This document shows, piece by piece, positions 10,285 to 63,728 of a stretch of DNA of 64,000 nt. The notes under the pieces were generated by a model. The model was not told where the DNA came from and made no database searches. It saw only the letters and a program-made list of their open reading frames with translations. The translations under genes were made by a program, and so were the position numbers. How positions within the stretch are numbered: the first letter of the stretch is position 1; the number at the start of each line of letters is the position of its first letter. Origin of the DNA: Tetradesmus obliquus (taxonomy: Eukaryota > Chlorophyta > Chlorophyceae > Sphaeropleales > Scenedesmaceae); NCBI GenBank assembly GCA_030272155.1, contig CP126197.1, forward strand, positions 744,001-808,000, given 5' to 3'.

Positions 10285-10350
10285 GTGCTACCACCCCTCA
10301 CTCTGCCACTGCAACTGCCACGTCAGCCACACTGATATCTGGCTCACTGT

Positions 10351-10387
<37 letters not shown>

Positions 10388-10726
10388 CGGATGCTGCAGC
10401 AGCAGTCTGGCCAGTCATTGCATCGCGTGGCACAGGCACTGGTTGATTGTGATGGGCGGGCTGCCGTCGTACGTTGCTTTTGCCACGTCAGCAGTACCAC
10501 AGACACCATCCCAGCAACATATACAGCGCCCCATTGCCTCAGCACAAGGCCTGGGGCACGTATTAAGAGCCAAGGGCAGTACCAGGCACCCGTCACTCCG
10601 CCACTGCACCTGCCACGTCAGCCTCACTGATATTTGGCTCACTGCTAGCAGCAGCAGCAGCAGCAGCACTGCTGCGGCAGCAGCCGCAGTGCCAATGTGC
10701 CAGCAGTCAGGCCTGTCATCGCATCC
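10285..10726 (-). repeat. Decayed copies of the 3' end of the formamidase last exon
   Basis: Just past the formamidase stop at 10727 the terminal coding segment (DISEADVAGAVAE and the preceding bases) recurs near 10585-10640 and 10285-10340. The ADVAKATYDGS-to-CLCHAM part recurs near 10430-10505. CAG triplets separate the copies. They lie downstream of the stop codon in transcript order. Confidence 0.75.
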
Positions 10727-11061
10727 TCACTCCGCCACTGCACCTGCCACGTCAGCCTCACTAATATCAGGCGCTGACCCGCTGCCGCTGCTGGCAGCAG
10801 CTGGCCCCGTCATCGCATGGCACAGGCACTGGTTGATTGTGATCGGCAGGCTGCCGTCGTATGTTGCTTTCGCCACGTCAGCAGTGCCGCGCAGGGCGAC
10901 GCCCTGGGGCGGGATCCCGCCTTTCTTGGGGCGCACATCTTGGTCGAAGATGGCTGTGGGGATAGCCAGCGTGGCCACTGCAGCATGACAGCAGCAGCAG
11001 CAGCAGCAACTCGTCAAAGATGGCTGTGGGATTAGCCAGTGTGGCCACTGCAAGCAAAAAT

Positions 11062-11112
<51 letters not shown>

Positions 11113-11159
11113 TTGTCAAAGATGGCCGTGGGGATGGCCAGAGTGGCCACTGCATGCGT

Positions 11160-11195
<36 letters not shown>

Positions 11196-11399
11196 GCAGC
11201 GGTGGCGGCAGCTGAAGTTCGGACATGGTTTTATTGTTGCTGCAGCAGCGGCTGCCAGTGATGCCGGGAGCCATGCAGTTTAGAGCTGCTGCAGGCTTCT
11301 AAGCATGCTGTCTCTGCAGCACCCCTCTTGGTTGCAGCGAGCAGCGCAACTTGCAGCAAAGAAGCAAAGCTGCAGGCTTGCTGGCAACATCAGCAGATT

Positions 11400-11430
<31 letters not shown>

Positions 11431-11663: not shown

Positions 11664-11726
<63 letters not shown>

Positions 11727-13058: not shown

Positions 13059-13090
<32 letters not shown>

Positions 13091-13671: not shown

Positions 13672-13737
<66 letters not shown>

Positions 13738-13918: not shown

Positions 13919-13968
<50 letters not shown>

Positions 13969-14142
13969 GCTGAACGCACCTGCAGCCGCGTGTGAGGTTC
14001 TTGATGTCGCAGTTGCCTCCATTCTCCCTCCCAGGCACGGTGCGTGCAGCCTCAGCAGCAATGCGGTCCCACTCCGCTGACCCAGGCTCCACAGCACCCA
14101 AACAGGCACCACGTGCTTCTGGCAGGCAGGCTGCAGTGCAGT

Positions 14143-14183
<41 letters not shown>

Positions 14184-14292
14184 GACAGCAACATGAATTG
14201 TGTCAGCAGCCTCAGCAGCGACGCCGCCCCACTCCGCTGACCCAGGCTCAATGGAGCCCAGGCAGGCGCCACGTGCTTCTGGCAGGCAGGCT

Positions 14293-14343
<51 letters not shown>

Positions 14344-14466
14344 GCAGTGACAGCAGTGACAGCAACATGATTTGTGTCAGCAGCCTCAGCAGCGACGCCG
14401 CCCCACTCCGCTGACCCAGGCTCAATGGAGCCCAGGCAGGCGCCACGTGCTTCTGGCAGGCAGGCT

Positions 14467-14502
<36 letters not shown>

Positions 14503-14625
14503 GCAGTGACAGCAGTGACAGCAACATGATTTGTGTCAGCAGCCTCAGCAGCGACGCGGCCCCACTCCGCTGACCCAGGCTCAATCGAGCCCAGGCATGC
14601 GCCACGTGCCTCAGGCAAACAGGCT

Positions 14626-14664
<39 letters not shown>

Positions 14665-16113
14665 GCAGTTGTGAAAGCAGCAGCGCTAGTGAATGCACAT
14701 GCGCTAACAGGTTGCTAACAGGATCAACAGCATCCAGGCAGGCCCCCTGTGCCTCAGGCAGGCAAGCTGCGGTGCAGCAGCAGCAGCAGTTGTGCGGCAG
14801 CAGCGCCATTGAATGCATATGCGGTCCCACTCCGCCGACCCTGGCTGCACGGAGCCCAGGCATGGGCCGCGCGCCTCCGGCAGGGCAGGCTGCGGCGCAG
14901 CAGCAGCAGTCAGCTTCAGCAGTACTGCGAAAGTTTCTCCGCACTGTAGTTGCCAGGCAATGCGTCCTCTGCCAGGGCAGGGCCACTCCCTTTCATGTCT
15001 GCTTGCTCTGCCAGGCAGCAGACAAAACAGCACAGCCTTGGCTACTGCATTAGTGAATGCTGCTGTACGCAAAACCTCGGCTCACCCAGCGGCCGCGTGT
15101 GCAGCACTCCCCCCAGTGTGGTGCCCTCTGGTCCCGCCTCCACCAGTGCTCCCTCACGGCTGTTCCAGATGTCCAGCAGCTCCTTGCTGGGGGCCGTGCC
15201 AATCAGGCCTACGGGCAGGGCAAAACATACAATGACAGCCAGTCTGCAATGAGAAACAGTGCCTAGGTGCTGCTGCTGCTGCTGCTGCTGCTGTCGCTGC
15301 TGCTGCTGGTGCTGCTGCCAGCCCACAGCTAGAGCCGCTAATATTGGCGCTCTACACGCCTGACCTGGGTGGATGAGCCCTGCAAAGCGCACGCCCTGGA
15401 TGTGCCTGCTGCTGGCGTAGATGCCGTCAAAGTGCCACACCGCCTTGGTGGCTGCGGGGAAGTGGTCGGTCAGGAAGCCGCCACTGCAAAAAAAGACACA
15501 GAAGAGGCGCAGAAGTGAGGCAGTGCATTAGATGCTGTGGTACAGATGAGTCACAGATGCCGTCAAAGTGCCATCCGGCCTTGGTGGCGGCAGGAAAGTG
15601 GTCGGTGAGGAAGCCACCACTGCAAATCACCAACCAAAAGAGGAACAGAAGCCAGTGCATGGTATGTATGCTTGAGCACAGGTGCCGTCAAAGTGCCACA
15701 CGGCCTTGGTGGCTGCTGGGAAGTGGTCGGTGAGGAAGCCGCCGCTGCAGCAGCAGGGCGAAAAGCAGGGGGAGAGAACGAGTGGCTGGGGTGGAGTGCT
15801 GCTGTTTTTGTGCAGTAAGCTGCAGCATGCAGAAACTACACAACTGGCAGTCAACTGCTGCTCAAGTGATTGTGCCTGCAGGCTTGGCGCCTCCGCTGCT
15901 CTTAGTGAGAGGTGCACTTGTGGCGCACAGCATTCAAAGATACCACAAAGTTCTCACAAGTTTGCATGGTCAAAGGAGCCTGTGAAAGCAAAGTTCACAG
16001 CGGTGTTCTCACCCGTTTTCACGGTCAAAGGTGCCTGTGAAGCCCCACTCGTCACCAGGCAGGGGCCCCAGGTTGCACAGCTCCACACACAGCAGGTCAC
16101 CTGCGGCGGCGGC

Positions 16114-16151
<38 letters not shown>

Positions 16152-16583: not shown

Positions 16584-16635
<52 letters not shown>

Positions 16636-17131
16636 GTTGGCCACCTGATGTACCACCTGGGTGGGGTCCAATGTCATGACGCCCTCCGCCATTTCTACAC
16701 CACATGGCCAGCGCTCCATGATAACCATAGTGGTCAGCAAGTCATTTGCATTACTCACTACCAGTGACAGTGAATCAATTTCAAAATCAGATTCCCACCT
16801 GGCCTAGGTCCACCATCTGGATGTCTTCTACCAAGTCACTGTTGCCGATCTGGCCGCCAGCCAACAGCATAACGATGTAACATGTTTCAAAACATCCCCA
16901 CCTGGCTGAGGTCGACCGTCTTGATGTCCTTTGCCGAGTCATTGTCACCGATCTGGCCGCCAAGCAGCAACATAACAATGTAACATGTAACACGTTTCAA
17001 AACATCCCCACCTGGCTGAGGTCCACCGTTTTGATGTCCTCTGCTGAGTCATTGTCCCCAATCTGGCCGCCGGTCCAGTCCACCGTCTCCACACGGAACA
17101 GTTCGCCCTCGCTGACCTCAGCCACCTGGCC

Positions 17132-17184
<53 letters not shown>

Positions 17185-18849: not shown

Positions 18850-19975
18850 CTACTGCTGCTGCTGCTGCTGCTGCTCCTGTAGCATGCCAACCGGCAAATT
18901 ACTGATCGTCATCTGCCCCAGGTTGATCACGGCGCCGCTGCTCACTGCTGCTGCTGCTGCTGCCGAGCGCGGCCAGCTGCCAGCCAGCTGCCGCGCTGCT
19001 GCTCCTGCCAGCAGCGTGTGCCCAGTGAACTGCAGCTGCACAAAGTCTGGCTGCAAGCCCAGGCTGTCCTGCAGACGAAAAGACACAGCAGCCGAGGGCA
19101 AACAGGGCAAACAGTAAAGCAGCAGGATCATCAGAAAAGGATGTGACCAGTGAAATGCAGCTGCGCAACATGCGGCCGCAGGCCCACGCTGTCCTGCAAA
19201 GCACAAGACACAGCAGCCGAGGGCAAACAGTAAAGCAGCAGAACCATCAGAGGAGGATGTGACCAAAGAACTGCAGCTGCACAAAGTCCGGCTGCAAGCC
19301 CAGGCTGTCCTGCAGGGCGGCAATTGAGCAGCAGTCAAAGCAGCACTTTGTCTGAGTACGGCATGACAAGAGCAGCTGCCAGTTGACATTCCATCGCAGG
19401 ATCTGGCGAGTAGCACAGGCTGTCCTGCAGGGCAGCAGTGGCGCAATGGCAGCAGCAGCAGCATGCTGTAGAAGTGTTACAGTGACCTAGAAGCAGCTGC
19501 CAAATGAAAGTCAAATGGAGTGTCTGGTGGCCCTATCAGTCCCGCAAAAAAAAAGACGCAGCATGGTGGTCTGGTTATGCCCACATGCACCCTGCACAGC
19601 CGGCGCGCAGGGGGGCTTGTTATTCAGCATTGCTTGCAGGTGAACGGTTGTGCATTTACCATGCCTAAAACTGTCAGATTACAGCCATACACCTGCATCC
19701 TACAGCAATCAAGACTATACCCACCCACCTGCAGTATAGCTGCTGCCGTGTCCTCATCATCCACATCATCCACATCAGCAAATGCCCGCCATCATTCTCT
19801 CCCGTCAAGCCTGAGCGAAATAAGCAGTAGTCGCACACCCACCCACCTGCAGTATGGCTGCTGCTGTGTCCTCGTCATCCATATCAGCAGGCTCTAGGGT
19901 CACCAGGTCACCCCCGCTGCGCTGCACCCACGCCTGAGCCTCAAATTCAGCTTCAGCTTCCATGCCAGGCCCCGC

Positions 19976-31291: not shown

Positions 31292-32119
31292 TCGGGTGGA
31301 TCCTAGCATGATGGGGTGCAGTGCCGTGCTACGGTCTTTGTAGCACATGTAGTAGCTGGTAGTGGCAAAGCGCAGTTGCGGGTGATAGTGTGGATAAGAA
31401 TTTGGCCCAGTGACAAGTGTGAGGTCTTCATCAGGATGGTATAGAGGCCCCTGTTGGGCGCTTGTCACTGCTTGCAATTGTGCTAGACTAGTACTTGCGC
31501 GGGTAGGTTGCATAGGATGTGCACTGCATGCTGGTAGTCGACTTAGGTGTCACAGTGTAACACACGTGTTGGCAAGTTGCTCAGCGTCAGTGACGCAGCG
31601 GCACAGTCTTGGCCAATGGGCGCTGTGAAAGGTGTGAGTGCCCCATGGCTGCAAGCCTGGTACAAGATCGGCCGGTACATTGTAAACATGGAATTTGCAG
31701 AGGTTATAAGCTTGCAAAGCAAATGGATCAACATCGTAGTGGTCACGGCTTCCTCTGTGCCAAGGATTCTACGCTGTGCCAGCGGCGGCTTTTGGCAGGA
31801 ATCGTGGAGCACCTGCCAAGTCAACGGTATACAGTAAGAAGGCGCAGTACGGCGCAACTCGTGCACAGGGAACACGTGTTACGGTGGCATGCTGTGGGTC
31901 GTAGACAGCTGTAAGTTGCACTTTGATTTGAACTGGATCCACCAATGAAAGTTAAAAAATCGACGAGCTTCAGCGCCGAAACGGCACACACAAGGCGCCG
32001 CGCTGCGCTCACAAAGCGCGCACCGCGCTGGCCCCACTTTCATGGGGATACCCTGGCCCCCTAATCTTGCAACAGTCCTAGATCGTAGCAGCAACGGCCG
32101 CACCAGGACACACACTAAA
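31292..32119. other. Intergenic between convergent genes, nothing recognised
   Basis: This is the 3' flank of the secreted-protein gene. No credible reading frame is visible. The block at about 31930-32080 is unusually GC-rich and free of triplets, but I cannot assign it to an element. Confidence 0.4.
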
Positions 32120-32485
32120 CACACTTGCGGTGCACTGCGCTGGGCCCCACTTCTTCATACTCTGCTTTGATCATGAAGTGCCCCTGGTGCGCCACCAGCT
32201 TGGCCATCACTGCGCCGCCAATACACAAATGGACGCCACACCATTAACTCTCTCACTGCAGACAAGCAGCCACACCGGGCGATGCTGGGCCACACTTGTG
32301 GTGCATACTTCTGGTGCACTGTGCTCGGCGCCACTCCACAAGGCTTGCAACTGCTGAACCTCTGTGCCCTAATCTAAGCGCACTTGCGGTGCAGTGCGCT
32401 AGGCCCCACTTCTTCATACTCCGTTTTTATCATGAAGTGGCCCTGGTGCGCCACCAGCTTGGCCATCACCACACTGCAGCTGCCC
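32120..32485 (-). repeat. Two copies of the 3' coding end of ARP7
   Basis: The last ~90 coding bases of ARP7 (VMAKLVAHQGHFMIKAEY, then VGPSAVHRKC) recur at about 32125-32222 and 32385-32480, past the real stop at 32569-32571. Both remain close to the functional sequence. Confidence 0.85.
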
Positions 32486-32568
32486 AGCACAGACTGGATT
32501 CTCAATGCAACACAATCCTTCACACTGCTGATCAAGAGCCAAAGTGGCAATGCCAGGCCTAGGCTACG

Positions 32569-35182
32569 CTACGCGCACTTGCGGTGCACTGCGCTGGGCC
32601 CCACTTCTTCGTACTCCGCTTTGATCATGAAGTGCCCCTGGTGCGCCACCAGCTTGGCCATCACTGCGCCGCCAATCCACGGGATGTACTGCTGCGACTG
32701 CACCGCCATGTACTCCGGAAGCTGGCACAGCGCGGGCACCAGGCTGTTGGGCAGTTGGCCGCGCATGTCCTGCAGGGGTCGTTAAACATACAGTCGCAGC
32801 AAAGAAGTATGTAAGTGGTAAAGGCAGAAGTAGCAGCAGGTAGTTGGGCAGCTGGCCGAGCATGTCCTGCAGCGGTTGTTGTGCAAACCGTTGCAAACAA
32901 AGAAGTACGTAAGTATGCAGGCTGACGTGGCACCAGGCTGTTGGGCAGCTGGCCGCGCATGTCCTGCAAGCATGCGAGCAAGAGATGTGACATGCAGATA
33001 GATTGTTGGCCATGCAAGATCAAGAGGTGGTGGGACAAGACTGCACCGCCATGTACTCCGGCAGCTGGCACAGCGCAGGCACCAGGCTGTTGGGCAGCTG
33101 GCCGCGCATGTCCTGCAGCTGTGCAAGAGAGAGATGCAATAGCGATATACAGTATTATATATGCGTTTGAATATGCCGCGATTTGCAGAAATGCGGAGTT
33201 GAGAAGGGGCAGATGGCACAGCGCAGGCACCAGGGTGTTGGGCAGCTGGCCGCGCACGTCCTGCAAGCATGCGAGCGAGAAATGTGACAGGAAGGTAGAT
33301 TGTTAGCCATGCAATAACAACAAGTGGTGGGACAAGGCTGCCGCAATGTATTTGAGCAGCTGGCACAGCGCAGGCACCAGGCTGTTGGGCAGCTGGTTGT
33401 TGGACAGCTGGCCACGCATGTCTTGCAAGTGTGCGGTTGGGAGGTGCAACACCTACGTGTATGTATATCATGTGGTTTCAAGGAAGGCATATCCACACAG
33501 ACAGCATGCAAGCACAGCAATGCCACACACTGCGTGTTTCTGCTCTCCTAGCAATGCTTGGGAGCAGAGACAAACAGGATGACCAACACCAAAGCACACA
33601 GGAGAGTATTCAAGAACGCAGGTACTGACGTGGTGCATCCAGTGCACAACAACAGCAGCAACAGCAGCAGCAGTAGCGCCACCTGCACTCCCTCCCCAAG
33701 ACATGGGATACAGCAGCAGCCACATCACAAACATCAGTGAAGCAATGTGTATGATTCACCATCATAATCAGCAGCCGCACCTGCAGCACGCGCTCGCCCA
33801 GGCCGGGGATGCAGCCGCCGCCTCCTTAAATCACATTAGTGCATTGACATCTTCAACTAACATCACATCACAACCATCAGCAGCAGCCGCACCTGCAGCA
33901 CGCGCTCCCCTAGGCCCGGGATGCAGCTGCTGCCACCATAAAGCACAGTGAGGTGACACAGCACATTCAACTATCATCATCGTCATCATCAGCCGCACCT
34001 GCAGCACGCGCTCGCCCAGCCCAGGGAAGCAGCCACCACATCACAAATAACACTGAAGCAATATGTACGAGTCACCATCACCACCATCATAATCAGCAGC
34101 CTCACCTGCAGCACGCGCTCGCCCAGCCCGGGGATGCAGCCGCCATCATCACAAATAACAATGCAGCAACAAAAGCTTCATCATCAGCAGCAACTGCCGC
34201 ACCTGCAGCACGCGCTCCCCTAGGCCCGGGATGCAGCCGCCGCCTCCGCAGATGAGCACGCTCTCCACGATGCTGCGCTTGAGCGAGGGGTCCGGGTGGT
34301 CGGTCAGGCTCTGCACGATGCAATCCACCAGGCCTGTGCGCAACAGCAGAAAGCAACAAATTTTGGGGACATGGGGCATGACCAATGCTGAGCTTGAGCG
34401 AGGGATGCGGGTGGTCAGTCAGGCTCTGCACAACGCAGTCGACCAGGCCTGCACACAGCAGCAGAAAGTGACTAGGATGATGATATGTGAGACGTGATTG
34501 ATGGCTGCTTGAGCGAGGGATGTGGGTGGTCAGTAAAGCTCTGCACCATGCAGTCGACAAGGCCTGTGCAGGGCAGAAATCAATGATGAAGCAACACAGG
34601 AAGGATGGTATGTGACGCATGACAGATGCTGCGCTTAAGCAAGGGTCCGCGTGGTCGGTCAGACTTTGTACAATGCAGTCCACCAGGCCTGCGTGCAGCA
34701 GAAAGTGCAATCATCATGATGGCACCAACAACGCCGCAACAGCTGCTAGCTGGCAGAAGTGCGCAGCTGCTGGCTTACACAAGGGCTAGCAGCTAGCTGG
34801 CAGAACTGCTTAGCTGCTGCTGTTTCTGCTGCTGCTGCTGCTGTTTCTGCTGCTGCTGTTGTTCAACAAAGGCGATAAATACCTCTGTAATGACCTGCCA
34901 GCAGCCACATGTCACTCGCCTGGAGTGTGGTGCCCCAGCAGAATTAGTCAAGCAGCACCTCTGTCACCTGAAAGCCGGCATCAATGCTGAGCTGCTGCTG
35001 CTATGTGCAGTGACTTGCATTGTATTTAAGTGGCCGCTTGCCAGCAGCCAAGTCTTGCCACTGTACCTGGAGTGTGGTGGCCCAGCAGGGTTGGGTCAAA
35101 CAGCGCCTCTGCTAGTTGGTAGCCCTCCGTTGTCACTGTGAACTTCGAGCCATCAGGCAGTGTGAACTCCTCTGGCACCCCC

Positions 35183-35218
<36 letters not shown>

Positions 35219-35247
35219 GTTGTGCCGCCTTCGGGCCCTTGCGAGGG

Positions 35248-35279
<32 letters not shown>

Positions 35280-42800: not shown

Positions 42801-44509
42801 TACTCATCAGCAGATGCATTGTGATGCAAGGAGATCAACCACCACATGCTGCCTTGCTGGTGAAGCATGTGTATTGAAAAAGGCTGTTGCCACTTTGTGC
42901 AGCACTGTGCGGCATGCTCAGGTATGTCGTCTTTTGCTTGCCTTCAGTCAGGTGTTCCTTGCCACGCCGAGCTCAACTCACCTGCTTGTTGACCTGTGTT
43001 TGCTGCCTACAAGTTGCCCCCTGCATACGTTGAGCTTCCTCACACTGTGCTGGCTGCAGGGCTGTGCAGGCTGCGCTGGCCGCCACTGCCAGCCCGCTGC
43101 TGGAGGTGGGCATCAACCAGGCCACAGGCATCGTGTGGAACATCACGGGGCCACCAGACATGTCCCTGTTTGAGGTGCGCACATGTTGCTGACAGATCAA
43201 TGACCCACTTGCATATGCTGGAGCAAAGACTTCATCCATGCATGCAGTTCAATCAAGCCACATGTATTGTGTGGAACACCACAGGGCCACCAGACATGTC
43301 CCTTTTCGAGGTGCGCACATCTTGTTGACGGTTTGAGGACTCGTTTGCATAAGCTGGAGCAAAAAAGTTTGTATGCATTCATAAACCTGGCTACTGGCAT
43401 CGTGTGGAACATCACGGGGCCACCAGACATGTCCCTGTTCGAGGTGCGGGCATTTTGTTGACGGTTCGATGACGCACTTGCATATGCTGGAGCAAAGACT
43501 TCATCCATGCATGCAGTTCAATCAGGCCACATGCGTTGTGTGGAACATCACGGGGCCGCCAGACATGTCCCTGTTCGAGGTGCGTTCAGGGGGGTTATTG
43601 GTGGCCGGGCCTTGGCCCTGCATTTGCAGGACCTGATACTCCACCGCTGCAGGGTGATTGCATGTTACACATGCATATGAATCTGCTGCTGCAAGCTTCT
43701 CGTGGTTCAGGCGGGAGCAGCACTTGCAAACGTAGTTTAGTAGTTTATGCATACGCAAAGTCCTTAAACCAGCATTCTACTAGCACAGAACCGTGCAGCA
43801 AAAAATAATTCCTTCTGTGCAGTACTGAACTTTGCAGGTGAACGAGGCCGCCGAGATCATCCACGACCTGGTGGATCCCGATGCCAACCTCATTTGCGCA
43901 ACTTCACACTGACCCATACAAACTTCCCGCTGTGAATTATCAAACCTCCTGCAGGTGAACGAGGCTGCCGAGATCATCTACGACCTGGTCGACCCAGATG
44001 CCAACCTCATCTGCGCAACTTCACACTGATCCACACAAACTTCCTGCTGTGAACTTCCTAACCTCCTGCAGGTGAACGAGGCTGCCGAGATCATCTACGA
44101 CCTTGTGGATCCTGATGCCAACCTCATCTTCGGCGCAGTGGTGGACCCATCCATGCAGGATGAAGTCAGCATCACCCTCATCGCAACAGGCGTGGGGCCA
44201 AAGGACCCTGCCTATGCACAGAGCCTGCACCTCACCCAGCAGGCTGTTGCAGCACCTGCAGCTCCAGCATCCGCATCTTCCCGTGCCACATCACCTGCTG
44301 CAGCTGCAGCGGGGCAGAATGGGAACGGCCACGCGCCCGTGCGGCAGCACATGCCTGCGGAGCAGCAGCAGCAGCAGCAGGCTGCAGCTGGCAGTAGGCC
44401 TAATGTGGTGGTGGAGAGGCCTGCTGCTGCGCAGTCTCGTGTGAGGGCTGATGTGCCCACTGGCGGTGTGGAGATTCCTGCCTTCCTGCGCAGGCTGAAC
44501 AAGAAGTGA
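39837..44509 (+). CDS. FTSZ: Plastid division protein FtsZ (FtsZ2-like)
   Basis: FtsZ is the tubulin-like GTPase that forms the chloroplast division ring. Nine exons close in phase and give 492 aa: 39837-40193, 40329-40427, 40822-40890, 41159-41290, 41623-41698, 42031-42122, 42567-42667, 43060-43174 and 44072-44509. The first ~80 residues are Ser/Arg/Ala-rich, as expected for a transit peptide. The GTPase domain shows [27 protein letters not shown], the tubulin signature [37 protein letters not shown] and VRGISDIIT, followed by [20 protein letters not shown]. The C-terminal subdomain has [20 protein letters not shown] and [14 protein letters not shown] Gln/Ala-rich linker leads to a conserved tail, [13 protein letters not shown]. 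The tail and the [13 protein letters not shown] region favour the FtsZ2 type. Exons 6, 8 and 9 have partial copies. Confidence 0.95.
42187..42332 (+). repeat. Two donor-side copies of FtsZ exon 6
   Basis: The exon end ([11 protein letters not shown] plus flank) recurs with donors near 42238 and 42328, downstream of the true donor at 42123. Confidence 0.85.
43245..43580 (+). repeat. Three donor-side copies of FtsZ exon 8
   Basis: The last ~60 bases of exon 8 ([18 protein letters not shown]) recur with ends at 43310, 43443 and 43579, after the true end at 43174. Intervals are 136, 133 and 136 bp. All three keep the GAG|GTGCG donor context. Confidence 0.95.
43838..44071 (+). repeat. Two acceptor-side copies of FtsZ last exon, each with a stop
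   Basis: Copies start at 43838 and 43955, exactly 117 bp apart, and the functional exon starts 117 bp later at 44072. Each has a TGCAG acceptor and reads VNEAAEII, then [15 protein letters not shown] and TGA. Both are in the same phase as the real exon. Confidence 0.95.
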
Positions 44510-46163
44510 GGGGTGGAGAGGCACCCTGCAGTAGTGCGGGTGGCTGCTAGCGGCTGGTTGCAGCAGTGATGCACAAGGGGAAGTGCAGCATGTTATGTGC
44601 ACTTTATGTATGTGTTGCTGGGTTTGCTGTTGGGCTGCAGCTGCTAACAGGCTGGCAGTGTTTTAGGTACTGTAGGGGTGTATGTATCATGACACATGTT
44701 GGAGGTCTGTCCACATCTTGTGCCATACTGTTAGCACATGTCTAGGTGCGAGTCAAGCGTGGGTGTGTCTGTGCATTCACAGCATTCACAGCAACTGTGT
44801 AGCTGTCGGAGGCTGACGAGCCTTACTGTATAGGCCTGTCAGGTTGTCATAGCGACTGTTCATGCCGTAGCGCGATGTGGTGATGCAAAGCGATGTGATT
44901 AAGCTATTTTGAGCAAGAGTGTGACAGGGCTGGAGTCTGCTTGAATTCAGTGAGCAGCAGATAAGTCTGGGCAGCAGATAAGTCTGGGCAGCAGATAAGG
45001 CGAAGCAGCAGATGAATCTGGGCATCTGGCGGCTTGAGTTGGCCCATGATGAGGGTAGCCACTGCTGTGAGTGCAGGGGTGACAGTGCTACAGGCAGCAG
45101 AGGACATTTCAAGTATGCTGAGCTGTGCAAGGTACCCCAGCCCTGTCTGTGGAAGGCTGCTGTGGTCTATCGTGGATGGACTATTGTGTTGCTGCACTTT
45201 GCAGATGCTGCATCGTTGTGATCGTGACGTTTGCATGTTGCAACCGAGCAACTGTTCGCTTTGCACCCAGTTGCTGTTGAATATGTGTGCGTGCACGCGT
45301 GCAGCTGCACATACCGCTGATGTATCTATGGTTCTGCATCCTAACGCCGTATGCAGCTCACCTTGGCACAGGCGTTGCTTGGTCAACATCACCCGTCTGT
45401 TCATCATGGCATGGCTCGCAGGAGTCCAGAGTTGTGGAACCATGGAACCTTGCAGTAGTGCCTCCTTTTATGCACTTGGTTTGGGGGCGAGCTTTCATGG
45501 GTCGAGGCAGTCACTGGTGTAACTGTGCTGAGTCAGATCGCAGCATGTGCAGCATGTTGAGGTTGTTCAGGTACGCAATGGTGCGCTGAGTGGGTCGCAT
45601 TGTTTCGGCAGCTGTCCAGGCATGCTGGCAGAAGGCCACGCGGCAGGTTGCCATACATTTCAGCCTTTTGTAACAGCTATGTAGTTGTTCTTGTTCAAGT
45701 GCAGCAGTTCGTGTCCTGAACCACACACCATGATGTTGCTGACCAGTCAAGTAGGAGGGAAACCCTAGTCATGGATCTAATCCCAACGTTGATGCCTGTG
45801 CCTGCAGCACATGGTGACATGTTTCATCTACCAACATATTTGCACGTGAGCAGCAGTGTAACTCCAAGATCAGCGCCCTTCATCCAGCTGTTGCTTAGGC
45901 GCCTTCCCAACAGTCGTTCATACTGCAGCTGCTGCTTCCATTCAGCAGCACGGATGTAATTCAACAATAACGCACTCAGGTAACTTGTTAAAGTATATGC
46001 TCGAAGATCCCGCTGACTCTACCAGCCCAGTCCCTCCTGATTCGACACGCTCATGTTGACAATCCGAAGCCTCGTTGATGATCATGCACGATCCTTATAG
46101 TTTTAGGCATATTGCACCATTATCTACTGCCACAGCACCACGCAGTCAAGGCCAGCTTGCACC
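44510..46163. other. Intergenic, no gene recognised
   Basis: About 1.65 kb between FtsZ and the asparaginase gene. Apart from a short tandem repeat (listed separately) I see only short frames without family resemblance. Confidence 0.5.
44954..45023 (+). repeat. Short tandem repeat, ~16-bp units
   Basis: Units of GCAGCAGATAAGTCTG recur head to tail about three times, followed by two diverged units. Confidence 0.85.
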
Positions 46164-48511: not shown

Positions 48512-48999
48512 GACTATGTGCACGCAGGTTTATCTTCTGGAGGGTTTTGTGGGGATTCGTGTCTCCGTGTGATGGATGGTAAGGAGTTCACCAGTGGGTC
48601 TGGTGATCCTGTCCAGCAGTGCTGCAGGATTGCTGTGTGGGCGTCAAGGAGGTCTGCCTATTGGCCGATTAGCGCAGAGTGACTAAGGTTTATTGACGGG
48701 TTGTTTGGAGCGAACGTCGTTGCAATCAGGCCGTGGAGTAAGCGAACTACTAAATTACGTGTTTAGGCTGTACTGCTGTGGCGCGCGCGAACTGTTGTTG
48801 CAGCTGCCTCCTTCAGTGCCAAGACCCGATGTACTGGTTACATCAAGTAGTGTTTAGAGCATTTTTGGGACCGTGCTGTGCACAAATTGAGCCGGTTGAG
48901 GCAGTCAAGTCGGTACCAGCGATGTAGGCAATTCAAAGTCCGAACAGCAAAATTTAGATTGAAACTCAGAATCTTCAATAGGCATCGCAGATTGCAGCC
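48512..48999. other. Intergenic, upstream of the FAM161-like gene
   Basis: No open frame of interest. The stretch likely contains the 3' end of the asparaginase transcript and the promoter of the following gene. Confidence 0.5.
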
Positions 49000-51865
49000 A
49001 TGGCGTCGCCAGACGCCAGGCTTGACAGTAAACTGGCAGCTCGCTTTGGAGGGGGAGCTGTGGCACAGCAGGCAGCCCGACAGGTGAGATGCAGCACGAT
49101 AAAGAAGGACGACCTACATGTATAGCTGTTAAACATAGCCCAGTTGGGCAGTGCGCTGCGTTGGCATCATGCTAGGCAGCAGGCATCTCGCTGCTGTTGA
49201 CAGCAGTATCACAGATGTTGCTGCCTGCATCCTGCACACAAGCAGGCCTTGCGCACTCGCAGCAAGCACCAAAAGTCAGAAGGATTGGAGTTGCCTGATT
49301 CCCCAGCAGCAATGGCACACGGTGGCAGCAGCCCTCTCTGGTATCTGCCTGTGGGCTATCAACTGAGCCCAGGCTCAAAAGCATCCTCAACTGGAGAAAA
49401 GTCCCCTACGATTCCAGGAGTGCAGTACCAAGAGTTCAGGAAAAGGCACGCAGACACGTGCAGCCCTGGCAGCAACAGTGTCTCACAGTCCTTGGAACTG
49501 CACTGCTCAGACTTGAGGGAAGGAAACGAGCATGCATCAGCAGATGATGAAGCCGCTGGTCCATCAGCTCATGTGCAGTCAACACAAAAGCAGGCAGCAG
49601 CAGCAGCAGCAATAGGACCCAGCTCTGCTGCTTCCAGCCCTAGGGCTACCAGCTATGGCCAGCGGCACACAAACCAGCAGCTCCAGCGGGCCTTAGCAGC
49701 CGCAGCAGCTGCTGCGGCAAGCAGCCCCCGCCGCAGCAGCCAAGCAGCGAAGGAGCTCAGCAGCTCAGACATGGACGAGATCCTGGGCGTGATGGATGCG
49801 CTGGGTGCTTGCAGGAAAGATGATGTGCCTGCAGTAAGCGCTCCAGCAGCTGCTAATGAGCAGCAGGACAGCCCTGCAGCTGCTGCCGTGGCAGCTGACA
49901 ACAGCTCGCAGCAGAAGCAGCAGAAACAGCAGCCTGAGCAGCAGCAGACCAAGCAGGAGCAGGTGCAGGAGCAGCAGTCACCTGCAGCAAGCCCCCGTGG
50001 CAGCACACCACATGGCCGCCCCACCCGTGCCTCCATGCTCAGCAGCAAGGTGCTTGCAGGAAAGGGCCCAGTGGTGCCAGTGAAGCCTGCTGTGTTCAGC
50101 TTTGATGCAGCACACCCTGGGCTAGCTGACAAGCACTACCTGCGCACAAAGGAGCAGGACAGGTGCGGCAGCGGTAGCTGGCAGATCAGGCATTGCTGGT
50201 CATTGTATTGGGCTTGCTGCTTGCTGCAGCTGGCAGACGAGCACTGTATCTAATAGATGCCTGGTGCTGCACATGCAAGGCCTGGAGGTTGTGGTGCATG
50301 TTGCTGTCACATCGGGTAAATAATATGTTTGTTCCTTTCCCATATTGTATGCAGGGCACTGAGCACGCTGGAGGGCGGCCGGCCAGCTTCCTGCGGCTCG
50401 CCAGAGCTGCGGCAGTCACTGCAGTTCCGCGGCAGCAGCAGCAGCAACGGCATCTGGGGCTCGCCTCGTCGGCAGCAGCGGCAGCAGCAGCAGCGGCCGC
50501 AGTCTGCACAGCCACATGCGACAGGTGCCCTGCTGGGCTCTCAGCGCAGGCATGCAAGCAGCAGTGAGGCGCTAGGAGCCCGTGCAGCATCAGCGGCGGC
50601 ATCCAGTGGGGTCATGCTTGGGAGCACCGCTCGCTGCAGCAGCGCACTGGACTGGGCCAGCAGCAGCAGGGTGGCTGAGCGCATCATGCAGGAGGGCGAG
50701 GCTGGTGCCGGCAGCAACAGCAGCAGCAGCGGCGGCCTTGCCGCACGGCAGGAGCTGCTGCGTGTGATGCAGCAAGCGCAAGCCGCGATGGCTGCATCTG
50801 CACATTTAAGGACGCGCCAGAACACGCACCTGCCGGCTGCCAGCAGCAGCCTTGCGAGCCGCGGCTCGAGCGCTGCTGCTGCAGCTGCTGCAATGGCAGC
50901 TGATCTGCTGGCAAGCAGGGGCACTGCTGTTGCTGGCAGCAGGAAGGGTGCTGCTGCGGCAGCTGCTGGTGGTGGCAGCAGCTGCAGGGGCAGTCCAGTC
51001 ATGCGCAACCGGCTGGAGGATGAAGAGCAGCTGGCATCTGCCAGTAGTGCAGCAGCCGGCAAGGACGAGTGAGTACTGTACTGCGTCCCACAACAGCTGT
51101 TGAGGGTGTTGTGCTTTGAGATGTGGTTGAGGCAAGACAGCCTGCTTATGTTGAGCTTGGCAGCCGGCCATTGAGGCAGCACATTGGCGCTGTGTGTGCT
51201 GTTTCCAAAAGCGCGGTCAGTGCATAAATAGCATGTGCTGCTGTTTTGCCGCTTGCAGGACAATTGAGGAGCTGAAGAGCAAGGTGGCCAGCTTGCAGGA
51301 GGGACTCAGCCTGCTGCTGTCTGCACAGTCCCTGCCAGCTGACACAGCAGCAGCACTGCAGGCTGCGCTGTGCAAGGGTGGCATGCTGAGCACCCAGCAG
51401 CTGGCAGCAGCTGGAGAGCCTGCTGCTAGTGCTGGTGCTGGTGCTGGTGCTGGTGCTGGTGCAGAGGGCAGGGGTGATGAGCTGGAAGAGTTTATTAACG
51501 CCATCAACAGGGTGAGCATCGATTGATCAGCAATCATGCAGGCTGTCGGCGCTGCTAGAGTGCTTACGTGCTATGTTACCGCTGCACAGATGCTGCAGCT
51601 GTGGCGTTAGTTTGCGGACATGCAGGCGCATGTGCCAAAGTGATGGGATGCGGTGGAGGGAGCAGGTGGAGGTTTCTATTGCATAGGTCAAGCTTGGCTG
51701 CAAGCAGGTGGCTGGCCTCATCAGATGCTGCAGGCGCGCTGTGCTGATGTTGCTCACTTCATATGCTCATGGTACATCAAAAGGCCTGCTGGTTTCCGTG
51801 CAACACATGCAATGCTGCAGGATGGAGGGTTGGAGCAGCTAGAGGGACCCAGTGCAAGAAAGGGC

Positions 51866-51905
<40 letters not shown>

Positions 51906-52360
51906 TGCCACAGGATGATGCTGCCAGCTCTGATGCATCCAAGCAGGAGAGCAGCAGCAGCAGCAGCAGCAGTTGCGTCAACAGCCCCAAGGCTGACGCA
52001 AGTGCAGCAGCAGCGGTGGCTGAGGATGCTGAGTGTGAGGCGCAGCTGGCCTGTGCTGCGTTTGACCCAGCCAGGTTTGAGGAGTTCAACAAGCAGGTGG
52101 GCAGCCGCACTGCACAGTACCAGCTGCATGACGACCGGGGCACAGATACCAGCTGAAGTGCAGCATAGCGCTACAGCCCAGGCATTCCGAGCAGGACTGC
52201 AGCTGTCACAAGCAGCTCGTGTTTCTGGGGAAGTTGCTTGAAGGAAGAGAGAAGGGCTCAGCATCTAGCCGTGTGCTCTGGTCATGCCACGCACTGCTGC
52301 TTCTCCCGGTACAATGCTGCTTGGGTTGCTGGGCGACTGCACCACGATCTCATCCGCCCC

Positions 52361-52432
<72 letters not shown>

Positions 52433-55400
52433 TACTGCCTGCCAGGTTGACGCTGACATGGCGCGGCGTGCAGCAGCGCAGGACTACGACTCAGACCTGG
52501 AGCAGGAGGCGGAGGAGGCACGCAAGTGAGCTGACGGAGCAGCAGCAGCAGCAACAGGCAGCCCGCAGCTGTTGCATCGTGCAGTGTGTTACTGCATTAG
52601 CAGTGGGCACAGCTGGTGGCAGTGCAGCACTTGTAGCAAGCAAATTATGGCGAGCGTGATGCTAACCATGACACGACAGTAAGTTGCCCCTACTGTCTCT
52701 CATTGCTGCTGCTGCTGCTGCTGCAGCGCGTCTGGTGAGGCTGCTGCTGCGCTGCGTGAGCTGCAGGAGGCGGAGCGCAAGCTGCAGGAGATCAGCAGCC
52801 AGGAGGCGCAGATGAAGGTGAGGGCGCAGGGCATGCACAGGCGATGCTGCAGCTTACTCATGTCAGTGTCAACGCCAGCTGTCGCTTTATGTGTGATGTG
52901 CAGCACATGCGTGCGTGCGCTGTTGTGTGCAGCATCAGCTGGGGTGAAGGCCTTGCAGGATGCTGGGCTTTTGTCTGATGTTGCCGATGCATGTGTACTG
53001 TTGTGCTGCAGGCTGCCTGGGCAGAGCAGGATGAGTGGATGAATGCCTACAGGAAGTCGTCAGGCCAGCAGCAGGAGCAGCAAGCAGCAGTACACTCAGA
53101 TCTGGAGGAGGAGGAGGAGGAAGAGGAGGAGGAGGCAGCGTATGACAGCGGCAGCCAGGCAGACGATGAGCAGGAGGCAGAAGACCAGGAGGATTCACAG
53201 CAGCGACTTAGTGCTGCTGCTGCTGCAGGCGACAGAGCAGCTGCCAGGGGCAAGGCAGCTGCTGAGGCTGCAGCTGCTGCAGGTGCAGCGCGTGGCAGCC
53301 AGGCTGCGATGGCAGCTAGCACCAGCCCTGGCAAGCAGCGCCAGATCGGGCTGTCGGCAGCGGATGAGCAGCTGATTCAGCAGCCGTTCATCCCGCGTGC
53401 CTCTCAGGGCTTGCCCGAGCATGCAATCATTAGTGAGGCCCTGGCGCCGAATAGGGCCTACCAGCAGCAAGTGATGAGCAGCAGCCCCACACGTTACCAG
53501 CAGCAGGATGAGTGCCTAGATGAAGGTAACCAGCATGGCGCTACAGGCGCTGATGCCGACTGCTACCACAGCGCAGACGGCTATCAAGCCTCAGGCAACA
53601 CACGCAGCAGCAGCGGGGGCGCCAGCTCGCCGTTCAAGACCACCATCGCCAAGCCGTTTGAGTTTGAGGCTGCTGCAGCGGCGCGCCCAAAGAGCATTGC
53701 TGCTGTAAAGCTGGAGCAGGACCTGGTGCTCAAGGCGCAGGAGGAGGAGGCACACTACAAGCAGAGGTGGGTCTGCTCTTCTATGCCTGTGTCTGTGTCA
53801 ACCAGGCATGTATCAAGAGTGCACCGGGGTGCAGTGCATCCTGCATTGTATCAAATTGCTTGTTTGAAGAACTAAACCTTTGAATCGATTCAAGCTCATA
53901 CGCCATGCCACCGGTGCTCTCCGCATCCAACCCTGTGCCCTGCTGCTCGCAACAGGTTTGTGGCCAGCCCTATTCCTGCTGCCACGCTGGAACCGCGCTA
54001 CCAGCACATCATTGCAGACCAGGCAGCCAAGCGCGCAGCCAGCAGGTCACGGTGAGCCACATGCAACACTCAGACGGAACCAAAAGCCTGTCTGGCAGGC
54101 CTTGCAGGCCACCCCTGCCAGCTGAACATACTTTACCAGACATGGCAGCCAGGGTGCAGCGCAAGTTTGCACTGTGGCTGCATCACTGCTTTTGTCATCA
54201 TGGCGGATGTATATAATTTGGTTCCGCTGCCAGGCACCTGCGAATTCTGACATGGATTGACCTGAGTGCTGTGCAAATGTGTGGTGGCTGCTGCAGGTAC
54301 AAGGAGCTGCTTGCTGCCAAGGAGTGCCCCTTCAGCTTCTACGAGCGGGACAAGGAGGCGGCGACAGCAAAGGCGGCACGCCGCGCAGCTTTGAAGGACC
54401 CAAACAGGTTCCAGGTGAGACAGCGGTTGTGATTTTTGGCATTACTTTTTGAGCACAATTGCAAGATGTAACACATCAGGGCAGTGACATGACTAGGCTG
54501 GACTTGGCACCTTGCATCTCAACCAATGGCTGTGAGTATCCTTGAAGCCAGTGTTGTGCAGCCCATGGGACGCCTGGAGGATGCATGTTCTGTGCTGCCC
54601 CTGCTGCGCTGCTGTGCAGCAGCATCGCGTGCTCAGCATTATGTCTCATCTGCTGCGCTTGCTCTGCTGCTCCTGTCCTGCAGCAACCCTTCAAGGCCAA
54701 GCCGGTGCCTGGCCACGTGCATGAGCAGCGCTATGAGGCCACTGTTGTCGTTCTTTGTGCTGAACACGATACCTGAACCTGTCTTTCACCTGCCCTGCAG
54801 CAACCCTTCAAAGCCAAGCCGGTGCCTGGCCACGTGCACGAGCAGCGCCACAAGGCCACTGCCGCATTTTTTATGCAAACAACAATGCCTAACCCTGCCT
54901 ATTGTCTGCCCTGCAGCAACCCTTCAAGGCCAAGCCTGTGCCAGGCCACAAGCTCGAGCAGCGCAACAAGGCAACTGCCAATGCTTCTTTGTATCATGGT
55001 GTGCTGAGAACTGATGCTGCACCTTCTGTGGCTTGCCGGTTCCCCCTGCAGCAACCCTTCAAGGCCAAGCCCGTGCCAGGCCACGTGCACGAGCAGCGCT
55101 ACGAGGCCACTGCCGCATTGTTTATGCAAACAACGGTGCTAACCCTGCCTATTGTCTGCCCTGCAGCAACCCTTCAAGGCCAAGCCTGTGCAACACCATG
55201 TGCACGAGCACCGCCACGAGGCCACTGCCATGCTTCTGTGCAGCAACGTGTGCTGAAATTCTTGCCTTCTGCCTACCCTGCAGCAAGCCTTCAAGGCCAA
55301 GCCTGTGCCTGGCCACGTGCATGAGCAACGCTATGAGGCCACTGCCGTGGGCGTCGAGGCGGCACGGCTGGCCGCCAAGGTGCGAGCAGAGATGGCGCGC

Positions 55401-59619: not shown

Positions 59620-60089
59620 ATGCCCAGATGTGTAGGGCTGCTGGCGCTGTTCAGCAGCTTGTTGGGCGTGCTGCTGTTTGGGCTTCCCGGCGCCTGCAGC
59701 CTTTCGCTGAGCGGTGATTTGGCGCTGGATGATGCTATTCACATCGATCAACCGACAGTGGTCGGTTCGAGCAATAGCCTAGGGCCCAGAGTTACTGTCA
59801 CCTGTGGGGGTGATGGTCACGCTTTTGTTGTGAGGTGAGCAGGCAGCAGTTGCAAGCAGCAAGGGCAGTACTGGCCAGCAGCTCGTGTGTAATGCATTAT
59901 CAGAGGCCGATAGAATTGCCTGGACGTGCGCTTTACAAGCCATGTGAGCAGTGGTGTTGTGGTGTCGTCATGCAGTACATAAGCAATTTGGACAAGGCAG
60001 CCTCTGTTTCATCCACCCCAGTCACTGCATGCAGCATGTAACCATCTGCAGTGCTGTGTCAAGGTGACCATCATCATCATCATCATCAT

Positions 60090-60141
<52 letters not shown>

Positions 60142-63100
60142 GGCTCGTGCTAATTGCAGGCAGACATCCCTGGTCTTACAGAATGTAGTACTCTCAAACT
60201 GCAGCAGCGCTGCAGTCGTGCTGCTGGGACCAGGAGCCTCTCTGGAAGGTATTGATGTTACTTTGACCGGCAACAGCAATGCCCAAGGGGTTCAGGGCCT
60301 CATCATTGCAGCACAGCAAGCATCTGTTACGCTGCGGCGCGTGACAATCAGCGGCAACGCAGCAGGAGGGGCTGCAACAGCACCTGCTGATGGCCAGCTA
60401 CAGCACCCAGCTTGCAAGGACAGCTCACAGACAGGTGGCGTCACCATGCAGTCCCCAGCAGTCACCAGCAGCAGCAGCAGCGGTTTCAGCTTTCAGCCGC
60501 CAGCATGTGGGTCACCTGTGTTACGCAGCTCTCTCATTTTCCTGCAAGACAGCAGCCTCATTGCTGAGGCCACCAGCATTACCAGCAACACAGCAGATGC
60601 ACTTATCACAGCCACTGGGTCTTCACAACATTCCCTACAGCTGCTTGCAGGAACAAAGCTTGTTAGTAACAATGTAACATGGTTAGTAACAGCCGACTCC
60701 TGGCCAGCAGATGCAGTGGGTAGGACCAACATGATGGCTCCACAGCCGAGTGAGAATACAAAGACGTTCAACATGCAGCCCCCTTTCACAGCTCGAACTG
60801 CTATGGGAGGTATTCGGGAGATGATTGCAAGCAGCGCGTCTGCTGTTGCAGCTGTTGCTGCTGGGATGGAGAGGGTGCAGGCGTTTGTGGGTGCTGCGCC
60901 AAAAGGCCAGGTAGGGCTGTCATTCATGGAGAAGTATCTTAGGGCTGTGTTGCGCTGTTGATACCTGCAGTAACAAAGGTCCATACCAGAATATATGCAT
61001 GTATGGGCTGTGCAGGGATTGCTGGTTTGGTAAGCTAGGTGATCTGGCCAGACTCGGATGTGTGTAGGCAGCGACAGCAGGCACGATAAGCAGCAGGTAA
61101 CCCCAGCACATGATACAAAGTCGTACTCATTATGCCACTTGCCATAATGAGCATCTACAGCCCTTGAGTAGGCCAAGTCAATCCATTGACTCTGTGCTGA
61201 GTCCTGGCACCTGCCTGCGCTGCTGTGTTTTTGTACGATCATTGCACCTTGCAGTCGCCCCTGCAGGTGCTGCTGCAGGATGCCGTCATCAGCAGCAACA
61301 CAGCCAGCCAGGGCCTGCTGTGGCTGCGGCTGGTCAACAGCAGCATGACAAATGTAAGAGTTACAGGCAACCTCGGCACTGGCAGCAGCGGCAGCAGCAG
61401 CAAGAGGGCAGCAGCAGCAGCAGAATTGGGTGCTGTGGCGCCGCCGGGTCCTTGCGACGTTGGCGCGCTGCACAGGGCGATGGTGCAGGTGCATGGGCCT
61501 GCAGCATTTGAAGTGCACAGGTGCGCATCTAGCAAACTGGCAGAAAGGAATGCAGATCAATGGTCACTGATCGTACTGGTGCATGCCGCAGCAACAAAAG
61601 TAGTACTAGTAGCTGTTGGTGTTCCACTCTGCAGCGCCTATTATGTTCTTGGATTGATGTTTGCCTGCAGAAGTCAAGCTGCCGCTGCAGAAGCCAGGCA
61701 GACAGCATCACCTGCTCGGCATGCAGCAGCATGGCAAATGTAACAGTTACAGGCAACCTGTGGTTGCTGGCTCACCATCAGCAGCACCCAAATCAGTCAA
61801 CTCTCACTGTTGACAGCCATCTTCACATGCTGGTACATCTGCTGCTGCATGCACAGGTGCCGCTTCAACGGCAACAAACACCGCTCAGGTGCCCTGATCC
61901 GCGTCACCGACGGCTTCTCTTTAACCAGCCTGCGCAGCAGCAGCTTCCGCTGCTTCTTGTCAATGACAAGATATACTAATACATACTGGCTGCACGCTTC
62001 CTGCAGGTGCAACTTCAGCGGCAACGTGCACCGCTCAGGCGCCCTGATCGGCATCACTGACGGCTTCTTTTTTACCAGCCTGCGCAGCAGCAGCTTCTGC
62101 CGCTCTTCTCATCCCTGACCGGATCTACCCATTCATATGTTTGCCCGCTCCTTGCAGGTGCCGCTTCAGCGGCAACATGCACCGCTCAGGCGCCCTGATC
62201 CGCGTCACTGACGGCTTTGCCCTAACCAGCCTGCGCAGCAGCAGCTTTGACAGCAACACTGCCACAGCTCTGCTGCGCTTTGAGGGCCGCACCTGGGTGC
62301 TAGACACGGCGCAGTTCTTCAGGGCTTCGCAGTACCTGGATGTGCTGTACTATACGGAGTACGAGGGCAGCAGCAGGGGCGCATACAGCTATGCGCAGAA
62401 GCAGCATGCGGCAGAGCTGGTGAGAGCGTGTGACACATCAGTGTCTGCAGGGATATGTTTAGGTGGGCTGTAGAACTGGCCCTTTGCGTTGCATGTTTCT
62501 GCTAGACTTTCAAAAAGCAGCACGCAGCAGAGCTGGTGAGCACCCTGCTGGATGAGCACCTGCCGGGTGTGGTTGGCAGACGCTTGTGTACATGTGTTTC
62601 ATGCGCACAGCTACGCGCAGAAGCAGCATGCGGCAGAACTGGTAAGTTGCTTATTTGGAGCAGAGCCTGCAGGGCTGTGTTTGGCGGATGCGTGTTTTGG
62701 CTGGCCACAGAATGACCCTTCTCTGTCTGTTCCTGCAGTGGTGCCGCTTTGCTACCAGCATGCACACAAGTACCACAGGCATCAACTTTCAGCCTGCTGT
62801 GCACTTCCCACTTCTGAGCATGGCCAGCCTCAGGATGGCTGAAATGTTGACGATCTGTGCTGCCCTCCTGCAGGCGCGCAAGGAGAGCAGTTCAGTGGAC
62901 GCCTTTTGGCTGCTATCAGACTGTGCCCTCACCAACAACACGGTATTCCATGCGCTGCTGCTATCAGTCGGCAACCGCACCTCATGGAGAGAGTACATCA
63001 CACGAAAGGCAGATGTCCTGGAAGCTGGAGCGGCTGGCAATTCCCCACAAAGTGCAGAGCAGGTTGCAAAAGCCCTACCTCTTGACAATTATGCTGCCAG

Positions 63101-63728
63101 TTGGTGGGTCACCGGGTGCAAGGTGACTGGAAACAGGCTGGCGAGCCAATCTACTGCTGCTGCTACTGCTGCTGCTGCGGGAGGTGGCAGTACAGCTGCA
63201 GCAAAGCAGCGCAGGAAAGCAGCAGTACATGCGCCAGCAGCGGCTAACAGCAGCAGCAGCAGCAGCAGCGGCAGCTGGGCCGAGTGGGAGGCAGCAGGCC
63301 CTGGTGCAACATACGAGGATGCTGTCAGCGTTGTTATAACAGCGGGGCCAGATCTGCAGCAGAAACTGGCCCTTGGAGGAGCCAAATGTGCTGCTGCATT
63401 TGCTGAGGCTTATCGGGAAATGCAAACAGGGCTGCAGCTTCGTCGAGCTACACATGCCCGCCTGCCGGCTGTTATTTGGTCAACTTTCAACCAGGGCTAC
63501 CTGTCTGCAACAGAATTTGAAAATAACACGGGATTCAGCCACGTGTTACGTCATGATAACACGTTACTAACGTGGTTGGATGTGAAGTTGCGAGGCAATG
63601 CAGCTCAGGGGAGTGTAGTGGATTTGTGGTATGGCGACTTTTGGGCGAGGCAGGCGCAGCTGGTTGGCAACACCGCAAGCAATGGCAGCATATTGGATCT
63701 GGAGTCATTCATTGGCTCCTTTGACCAG
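59620..63728 (+). CDS. Secreted right-handed beta-helix (pectin-lyase-fold) protein, 3' end outside window
   Basis: Exons 59620-59834, 60160-60910, 61255-61520, 62158-62419 and 62739-63728 close in phase and give 828 codons so far. A donor follows 63728, so the gene continues past the window. Exon 1 is a signal peptide (MPRCVGLLALFSSLLGVLLF, cleaved near GACS). The rest has the short alternating strands of a parallel beta-helix: SLVLQNVVLSNCSSAAVVLL, SLEGIDVTLTGNSNA, SVTLRRVTISGNAA, VISSNTASQGLLWLRLVNSS, TNVRVTGNL, SLRSSSFDSNTATALLRFEG, ALTNNTVFHALLL and KLRGNAAQGSVVDLWYG. The asparagine-rich turns fit this fold. A cell-wall or extracellular role is likely; no catalytic residues for a lyase are evident. 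The acceptor of exon 3 could also be at 61267, in the same frame. Confidence 0.65.
60069..60141 (+). repeat. ATC run followed by CTG run at an intron end
   Basis: An ATC microsatellite (60069-60089) and a CTG run (60091-60140) end about 18 bases before the acceptor of beta-helix exon 2 at 60160. Confidence 0.9.
61857..62157 (+). repeat. Two acceptor-side copies of beta-helix exon 4
   Basis: Copies of CRFSGNMHRSGALIRVTDGF and ALTSLRSSSF start at 61857 and 62007. The full exon starts at 62158. The spacing is 150 and 151 bp. Both have good acceptors and lose the frame or stop after the copied part. Confidence 0.95.
62500..62650 (+). repeat. Two donor-side copies of beta-helix exon 4
   Basis: The exon end (YAQKQHAAEL plus GT donor) recurs near 62510-62537 and 62610-62645, downstream of the true donor at 62420. 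Confidence 0.85.

Follow-up and report, generated by a model that had tools for sequence, protein, structure and literature searches.

The window analyzed here is a stretch of 64,000 nucleotides of the green alga Tetradesmus obliquus (contig CP126197.1 of assembly GCA_030272155.1, positions 744,001 to 808,000 of the forward strand). The genome sequence searched comprises 104,662,953 bases in 17 contigs, with a G+C content of about 57% in the window; the published T. obliquus genome is given as 108 Mb with 57% G+C (PMC5966456). Exons in the window match the FtsZ, actin, formamidase, asparaginase and leucine-rich repeat families of Pfam, and no match to Rfam models was obtained in it at gathering scores. 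Edges of exons without Pfam support were defined from open frames together with splice signals. A home-made gene finder was also tried for exon assignment and was dropped because it over-split exons or merged genes. Many of the repeats in this DNA proved to be copies of an exon edge, including its splice site, located inside the adjacent intron, as in the genes for FtsZ, an actin-related protein (ARP), a formamidase and others; the functional exon is left intact beside its intronic edge copies, which often lie about 115 nt apart.

The arrangement can be followed in the FtsZ gene, where two exons adjoin in the FtsZ_C profile (positions 15-53 and 54-94), so that the copies between them are extra. 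Between the end of one exon at 43174 and the start of the next at 44072 lie three copies of the exon end, a stretch of intron (termed I0) and two copies of the next exon start. By eye, spacers 1 and 3 of the region 43175-43520 are identical in their second halves and about 30% different in their first, possibly as the result of a short conversion tract. Reading of the window arrays confirmed the order described in the original prediction, in which copies of the acceptor side precede the full exon and copies of the donor side follow it. The prediction also argued that this order is forced whenever a duplication breaks once in the exon and once in the intron, and that argument is sound.

Table 1. 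Exon-edge copies and associated features in the window (TRF, Tandem Repeats Finder)
Feature	Position	Strand	Evidence and remarks
Array with CAG runs	14046..14668	.	TRF periods 159 and 333; counted without exon assignment
Functional exon start (15420-15485) with its two copies on the acceptor side	15419..15749	-	TRF, reading
Formamidase functional exon end (17012-17071) with its two copies on the donor side	16794..17071	-	TRF, reading; Pfam FmdA_AmdA on 17012-17146
Functional exon start (19021-19068) with its two copies on the acceptor side	19017..19315	-	By eye, a further decayed copy near 19425
Donor-side X Y X, two copies	19719..19886	-	92% identity over 50 nt, lag 118
Functional end of the terminal ARP exon (32569-32664), copied twice downstream (32374-32469, 32115-32210)	32115..32664	-	Pfam Actin on 32572-32763
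Next ARP exon, acceptor-side copies	32735..33435	-	Repeat pairs; by eye, copies stop at differing exon points
Donor edge (34203-34244) of the ARP exon starting 34278-34334 and four downstream donor-side copies	33756..34247	-	TRF
ARP functional exon start (34278-34334) and three upstream acceptor-side copies	34277..34707	-	TRF, repeat pairs; Pfam Actin on 35026-35985
FtsZ exon end (43115-43174, functional), then three donor-side copies from about 43251, 43384 and 43520	43113..43584	+	Period 136; TRF, reading, Pfam FtsZ_C on 43055-43174
FtsZ I0, innermost intron, from last donor-side to first acceptor-side copy	43585..43832	+	Reading; genome search with 43585-43835
Two FtsZ acceptor-side copies (exon part at about 43838 and 43955), then functional exon start 44072	43833..44129	+	Period 117; TRF, Pfam FtsZ_C on 44072-44506
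Five acceptor-side copies (54684, 54801, 54917, 55052, 55167), then functional exon start 55284	54672..55346	+	Differing spacers; TRF, reading
Two acceptor-side copies (61858, 62013), then functional exon start 62159	61854..62247	+	Period 151; TRF, reading

The analysis covered the window and 28 further 10-kb stretches of the same genome, 344 kb in total; these stretches, labelled L004, L006 and so on, were taken at round coordinates and are not a random draw. The window and the first 20 loci form the first sample (264 kb), and 80 kb retrieved later form a replicate. Self-comparison with BLASTN (length at least 40 nt, identity at least 78%, low-complexity sequence masked out) yielded 236 local repeat pairs in the 344 kb and none in one dinucleotide shuffle of the same sequence. 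Local duplication events numbered 122, about one per 3 kb, and pairs were present in the window and in 17 of the first 20 loci. TRF returned 118 rows for the window, including 12 arrays with units of 97-159 bp. The arrays, the reading of the sequence and the shuffled control together bear out the earlier view that exon edges are copied in many separate cases as a genome-wide habit. To say that nearly every multi-exon gene is affected was too strong, since the 10.5 kb from 44132 to 54672 are without a listed repeat pair of this kind, even though an asparaginase exon (in 46107-46643) lies there together with other long open frames. Beyond the window, locus L017 carries two long satellite arrays (16-6039), one with 14.2 copies of a 279-bp unit and one with 5.5 copies of a 345-bp unit, and L004 has a strongly AT-rich stretch of ATT/TAA repeats at about 2340-2920, compared with about 57% G+C for the genome. 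L015 (5798-6157) contains a minisatellite about 96% alike, in the unit of which a sequence resembling an exon end with its donor (CAG, then GTGAGT) recurs many times.

To score exon edges, two-copy pairs were tested for a splice signal together with open coding sequence on the exon side, using splice-site weights that were set by hand, untrained, in both samples; L017 and L004 were excluded, as were parts of L011 and L015. The same weights and exclusions apply to the automatic constraint count below. Mock pairs were real pairs moved by 150-3000 nt. A strong exon edge was found in 28 of 73 pairs of the first sample (incompletely de-duplicated within arrays) versus 13.7% of 1460 mocks, and in 7 of 20 pairs of the replicate versus 13.0%, the highest mock replicate there reaching 25%. 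The excess over the shifted control is about 2.7-fold, and the comparison is close to the test of boundary excess that the original prediction proposed for itself. With a codon-usage threshold only two events remained. Mismatches in 60 pairs, taken independently of any annotation, showed a modest codon periodicity (z about 5).

The form of the repeats is described here with X for the repeated piece, Y for the spacer and lag for the repeat spacing, so that a fresh head-to-tail duplicate spans 2.0 lags. The commonest form is X Y X, in which an exon-edge copy, an unduplicated spacer and the exon edge follow one another, and arrays have the form (X Y)n X. Eleven of the 12 window arrays have copy numbers with a fraction of.4 to.6 (nine at 2.4-2.6, one at 3.5 and one at 4.6), and the twelfth has 3.1. 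Among 96 non-redundant events, counted outside the satellite-like stretches of L017, L004 and parts of L005, L011 and L015, the ratio of span to lag was 1.2-1.6 in 57, 2.3-2.7 in 17, 1.7-2.1 in 16 and larger in 6; the corresponding numbers for the 26 events of the replicate were 14, 4, 5 and 3. Pairs that appear young (identity at least 93%, lag 70-260) included none at a span of 1.8-2.2 lags among 21, in a list not de-duplicated within arrays and drawn up without L004 and L017. The missing flank is therefore not explained by age alone. Plain tandem duplication followed by neutral decay was accordingly rejected as a general account, with single exceptions such as L006:1759-1971, to which we return below. 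Mutually exclusive exons or tandem duplication of whole exons were likewise rejected, as copies in the window families that were read are partial and not whole exons with both splice sites. Of the earlier description as tandem duplication of exon edge plus adjacent intron, the copying of the edge stands, and the head-to-tail unit is not the usual form. By lag, two-copy pairs have their peak at 105-130 nt (24 pairs, compared with 9 at 80-105 and 12 at 130-155) and rise again at 205-255 nt, where the 27 pairs may consist in part of every-other-copy pairs from arrays.

Two spacers were searched against the whole genome of 104.66 Mb. Neither the FtsZ I0 (251 nt) nor a 78-nt spacer of L019, from an array with three identical X copies, was found at a second place there, and hence no mobile element is seen at either. 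Introners, in which one intron sequence occupies many genomic places, were rejected for both spacers on the same ground. With the spacers confined to single loci, it is simplest to take the spacer as original intron and X as the inserted copy. In the 264-kb sample, 19 of 133 spacer or flank queries matched elsewhere, mostly through short or simple-repeat matches.

Most copies keep their splice sites, as had been claimed: GT is intact in 22 of 26 donor-type pairs and AG in 17 of 19 acceptor-type pairs, some rows being from the same locus and two of the donor rows being ARP stop-codon copies misread as donors. The donor consensus scores 5.46 of 6 in copies and 5.65 of 6 in working exons, and the pyrimidine share is.63 in both, versus.53 further upstream. 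Ten of the 26 donor rows share 6-10 identical intron bases, beyond which similarity ends. Considering all pairs of the first sample, a repeat end lies within 10 nt of the splice site in 17 of 73, versus 4.2% in mocks (highest mock replicate 9.6%). The replicate gave 2 of 20 versus 3.0% (highest 10%), or 2 of 7 strong cases, so that the sharp end at the splice site holds in the first sample and is weak in the replicate. Among pairs of at least 92% identity, 8 of 16 were strong exon edges and all eight end within 10 nt of the junction; among those below 86%, 12 of 30 were strong, three of them ending this close. In the terminal ARP exon, the two copies of which are 93% and 97% identical to the working exon, similarity stops at the stop codon and not at a splice site. 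L006:5402/5515 is a possible second case of this kind, with similarity ending about 4 bases past TAG. Over the 96 events, the donor motif stood at boundaries in its proper orientation 19 times and mirrored 5 times. CAG at acceptor-type boundaries was no commoner than its mirror image (42+43 versus 45+42), which gives no support to CAG and CTG sequences as the driver that had been suggested. CAG/CTG microsatellites are dense throughout the window, many of them within open frames that read poly-Q or poly-A.

The fate of the copies was followed through their codon changes relative to the working exon, for which a neutral copy of a constrained exon is expected to show a synonymous share of at most about.47. 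In 23 hand-picked families with 53 copies, there were 187 synonymous and 98 other changes, distributed as 63, 31 and 191 over the three codon positions, with gaps in 4 copies and a stop in 1; for this count the working copy also had to show the following exon residues, and the family ARP_Cterm was excluded. Automatic choice of 50 pairs gave 154.5 synonymous versus 118.5 other changes (share.57), and 13 pairs of the replicate gave 28.5 versus 34.5 (share.45), with no synonymous excess. Since constraint is stronger in the hand-picked set than in either of the others, part of the signal probably comes from the choice of families. Multi-copy families allow the changes to be divided. Those unique to one copy were 52 synonymous and 62 other, with a neutral expectation of about.31-.36 synonymous, whereas those separating the working exon from all copies were 21 and 4. 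From the one-copy changes we read the copies as mostly neutral; the extra synonymous share may reflect family choice, repeated spawning off an evolving exon, or a spell as working exon. When gene-conversion mosaics were sought in the exon parts of seven families, one of the 15 informative site pairs proved incompatible, a number not above that in simulations. Selection acting on copies via conversion into the functional exon was set aside purely on reasoning, since a synonymous divergence such as the copies show implies exchange at a few times the mutation rate. Finally, 10 of the 23 families show a likeness between outer intron and spacer that goes beyond the between-family null, in a test run with simple CTG runs unmasked. 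All ten have at least two copies, and none of the five single-copy families shows the likeness.

The mechanism that we propose starts from what is observed, namely the structure and spacing of the repeats, the exon-edge excess, the copy numbers of n + 0.5 and the near-neutral one-copy changes. As the best reading, to which we would nevertheless assign somewhat less than an even chance, we suggest that template-switch copying places exon edges into the next intron, that unequal exchange multiplies them and that they then decay almost neutrally. A frequent short-range duplication would copy 40-100 nt and place the copy about 35-110 nt away, giving X Y X, with template switching in replication or repair as the most likely step. 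When an exon-edge copy comes to lie in the neighboring intron, the real exon would remain contiguous with its functional splice site, and the gene would survive if the original junction is used, a choice presumably made in splicing. Direct repeats X around Y would allow unequal exchange or slippage to (X Y)n X, after which the copies would evolve nearly neutrally and the real exon under constraint; part of the exon-edge excess would be due to selection against copies that land in exons. Consistent with this, copies within one ARP array end, by eye, at differing points in the exon. Several observations weigh on the other side. The pair at L006:1759-1971, absent from the list of young pairs, is a near-complete and fairly young head-to-tail duplicate (1.9 copies, 94%), and 16 of the 96 events fall at 1.7-2.1 lags. 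About five of the 26 donor-type pairs contain a copy with a good donor that differs from the original one. Repeat ends lie within 10 nt of the splice site in 17 of the 28 strong cases of the first sample, versus 31% in mocks, and the similarity in the terminal ARP exon runs no further than the stop codon; if copies ended at random, such stops at splice sites or stop codons would not be expected. The synonymous excess in the hand-picked and automatic sets goes beyond neutrality, and the resemblance of outer intron to spacer also counts against the proposal.

Our confidence in template switching is limited because the differing good donors, and the stops at splice site and stop codon, favor the main rival, in which both junctions were once in use. 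Old tandem duplications of intron edge plus exon edge would have had their exon parts kept alike by recombination (conversion, unequal exchange, or exchange with contracted alleles using the outer junction) while the introns drifted, leaving n + 0.5 copies. Such a history would fit the outer-intron likeness in 10 of 23 families, the frequent end of similarity where constraint ends, the largely intact splice sites with their near-equal donor consensus, and the synonymous differences of the hand-picked and automatic sets. We nonetheless consider it rather unlikely: the likeness is missing in all five single-copy families, including pairs at 94% and 98% identity, the pattern of recombination appears in just one of 15 informative site pairs, and the replicate lacks the synonymous excess. 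Duplication might instead be directed to coding boundaries, for example by repair templated on splicing intermediates or transcripts, as the eight precise ends among the pairs of highest identity and the 19 to 5 orientation of the donor motif would suggest; several copies, however, include 6-33 nt of intron, the terminal exon ends at a stop codon, and precise ends are not clear in the replicate (2 of 7), which makes this route improbable. It also seems improbable that the copies are functional, as spare or regulatory junctions (poison or alternative edges) under selection: their intact splice sites and few gaps and stops are as expected for such a role, but acceptor-side copies have, by eye, no consistent donor at their inner end, and one-copy changes are near neutral. 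More broadly, it is doubtful that either duplication recognizes coding boundaries, be they splice junctions or stop codons, or selection keeps spare junctions that are used upon array contraction; if one of these were true, the genome would contain thousands of second, splice-competent exon edges. Repeat arrays are a usual place of assembly error, yet an assembly or sequencing artefact is very improbable, given copies that differ up to the 22% cut-off, distinct spacers, and the presence of pairs at 17 of the first 20 loci as well as in the window.

Some known processes resemble parts of this picture. Serial replication slippage, fork stalling and template switching (FoSTeS) and microhomology-mediated break-induced replication (MMBIR) can produce short spaced local duplications without full head-to-tail units; we know of no preference of these processes for exon edges or for a spacing of 115 nt. 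Minisatellites have a similar unit length and grow by unequal exchange. More than two tandem copies, as minisatellites have, are present in the TRF arrays, whereas the commonest form here is a single X Y X pair, and unlike minisatellites the repeats have half-unit ends and one copy that is a working exon edge.

A literature search limited to open-access papers found no genome-wide description of the pattern; single precedents are known, and a genome this full of exon-edge copies looks unusual. In the potato RdRp gene, a tandem duplicate across an intron-exon boundary is described as having become a new intron (PMC4974935). As here, the 3' side of an intron and the 5' side of an exon were duplicated, the splice signals were inherited and part of the exon in the first copy turned into intron; the account of that case concerns one gene, in which the intron part was duplicated as well, whereas many events are seen here and the spacer is mostly unduplicated. 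The tandem genomic duplication model of Rogers, as reviewed in PMC3443670, shares with our proposal a local intragenic duplication and a coding sequence preserved by splicing, but in the form reviewed there an exonic AGGT is duplicated to give a new intron, whereas our copies lie inside existing introns. Nor is the whole head-to-tail unit of that model what is found, with 57 of 96 events spanning 1.2-1.6 lags and none of the 21 young pairs at 1.8-2.2. Stwintrons (PMC8469720), with one intron nested in another, may be compared with the FtsZ I0 between its own exon-edge copies; stwintrons as described there have an interrupted splicing element, and those that proliferate carry terminal inverted repeats, in contrast to the direct exon-edge repeats seen here. 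The mean intron of T. obliquus, 462 bp, is the longest of the five algae in Table 1 of PMC5966456, and exon-edge copies may explain part of this length. What differs from the precedents is the number, the spacing and the half-unit form of the copies. A genome with so many local duplications, many of them on exon edges, would be a natural laboratory for intron growth, for the choice among equal splice junctions and, possibly, for the start of new introns.

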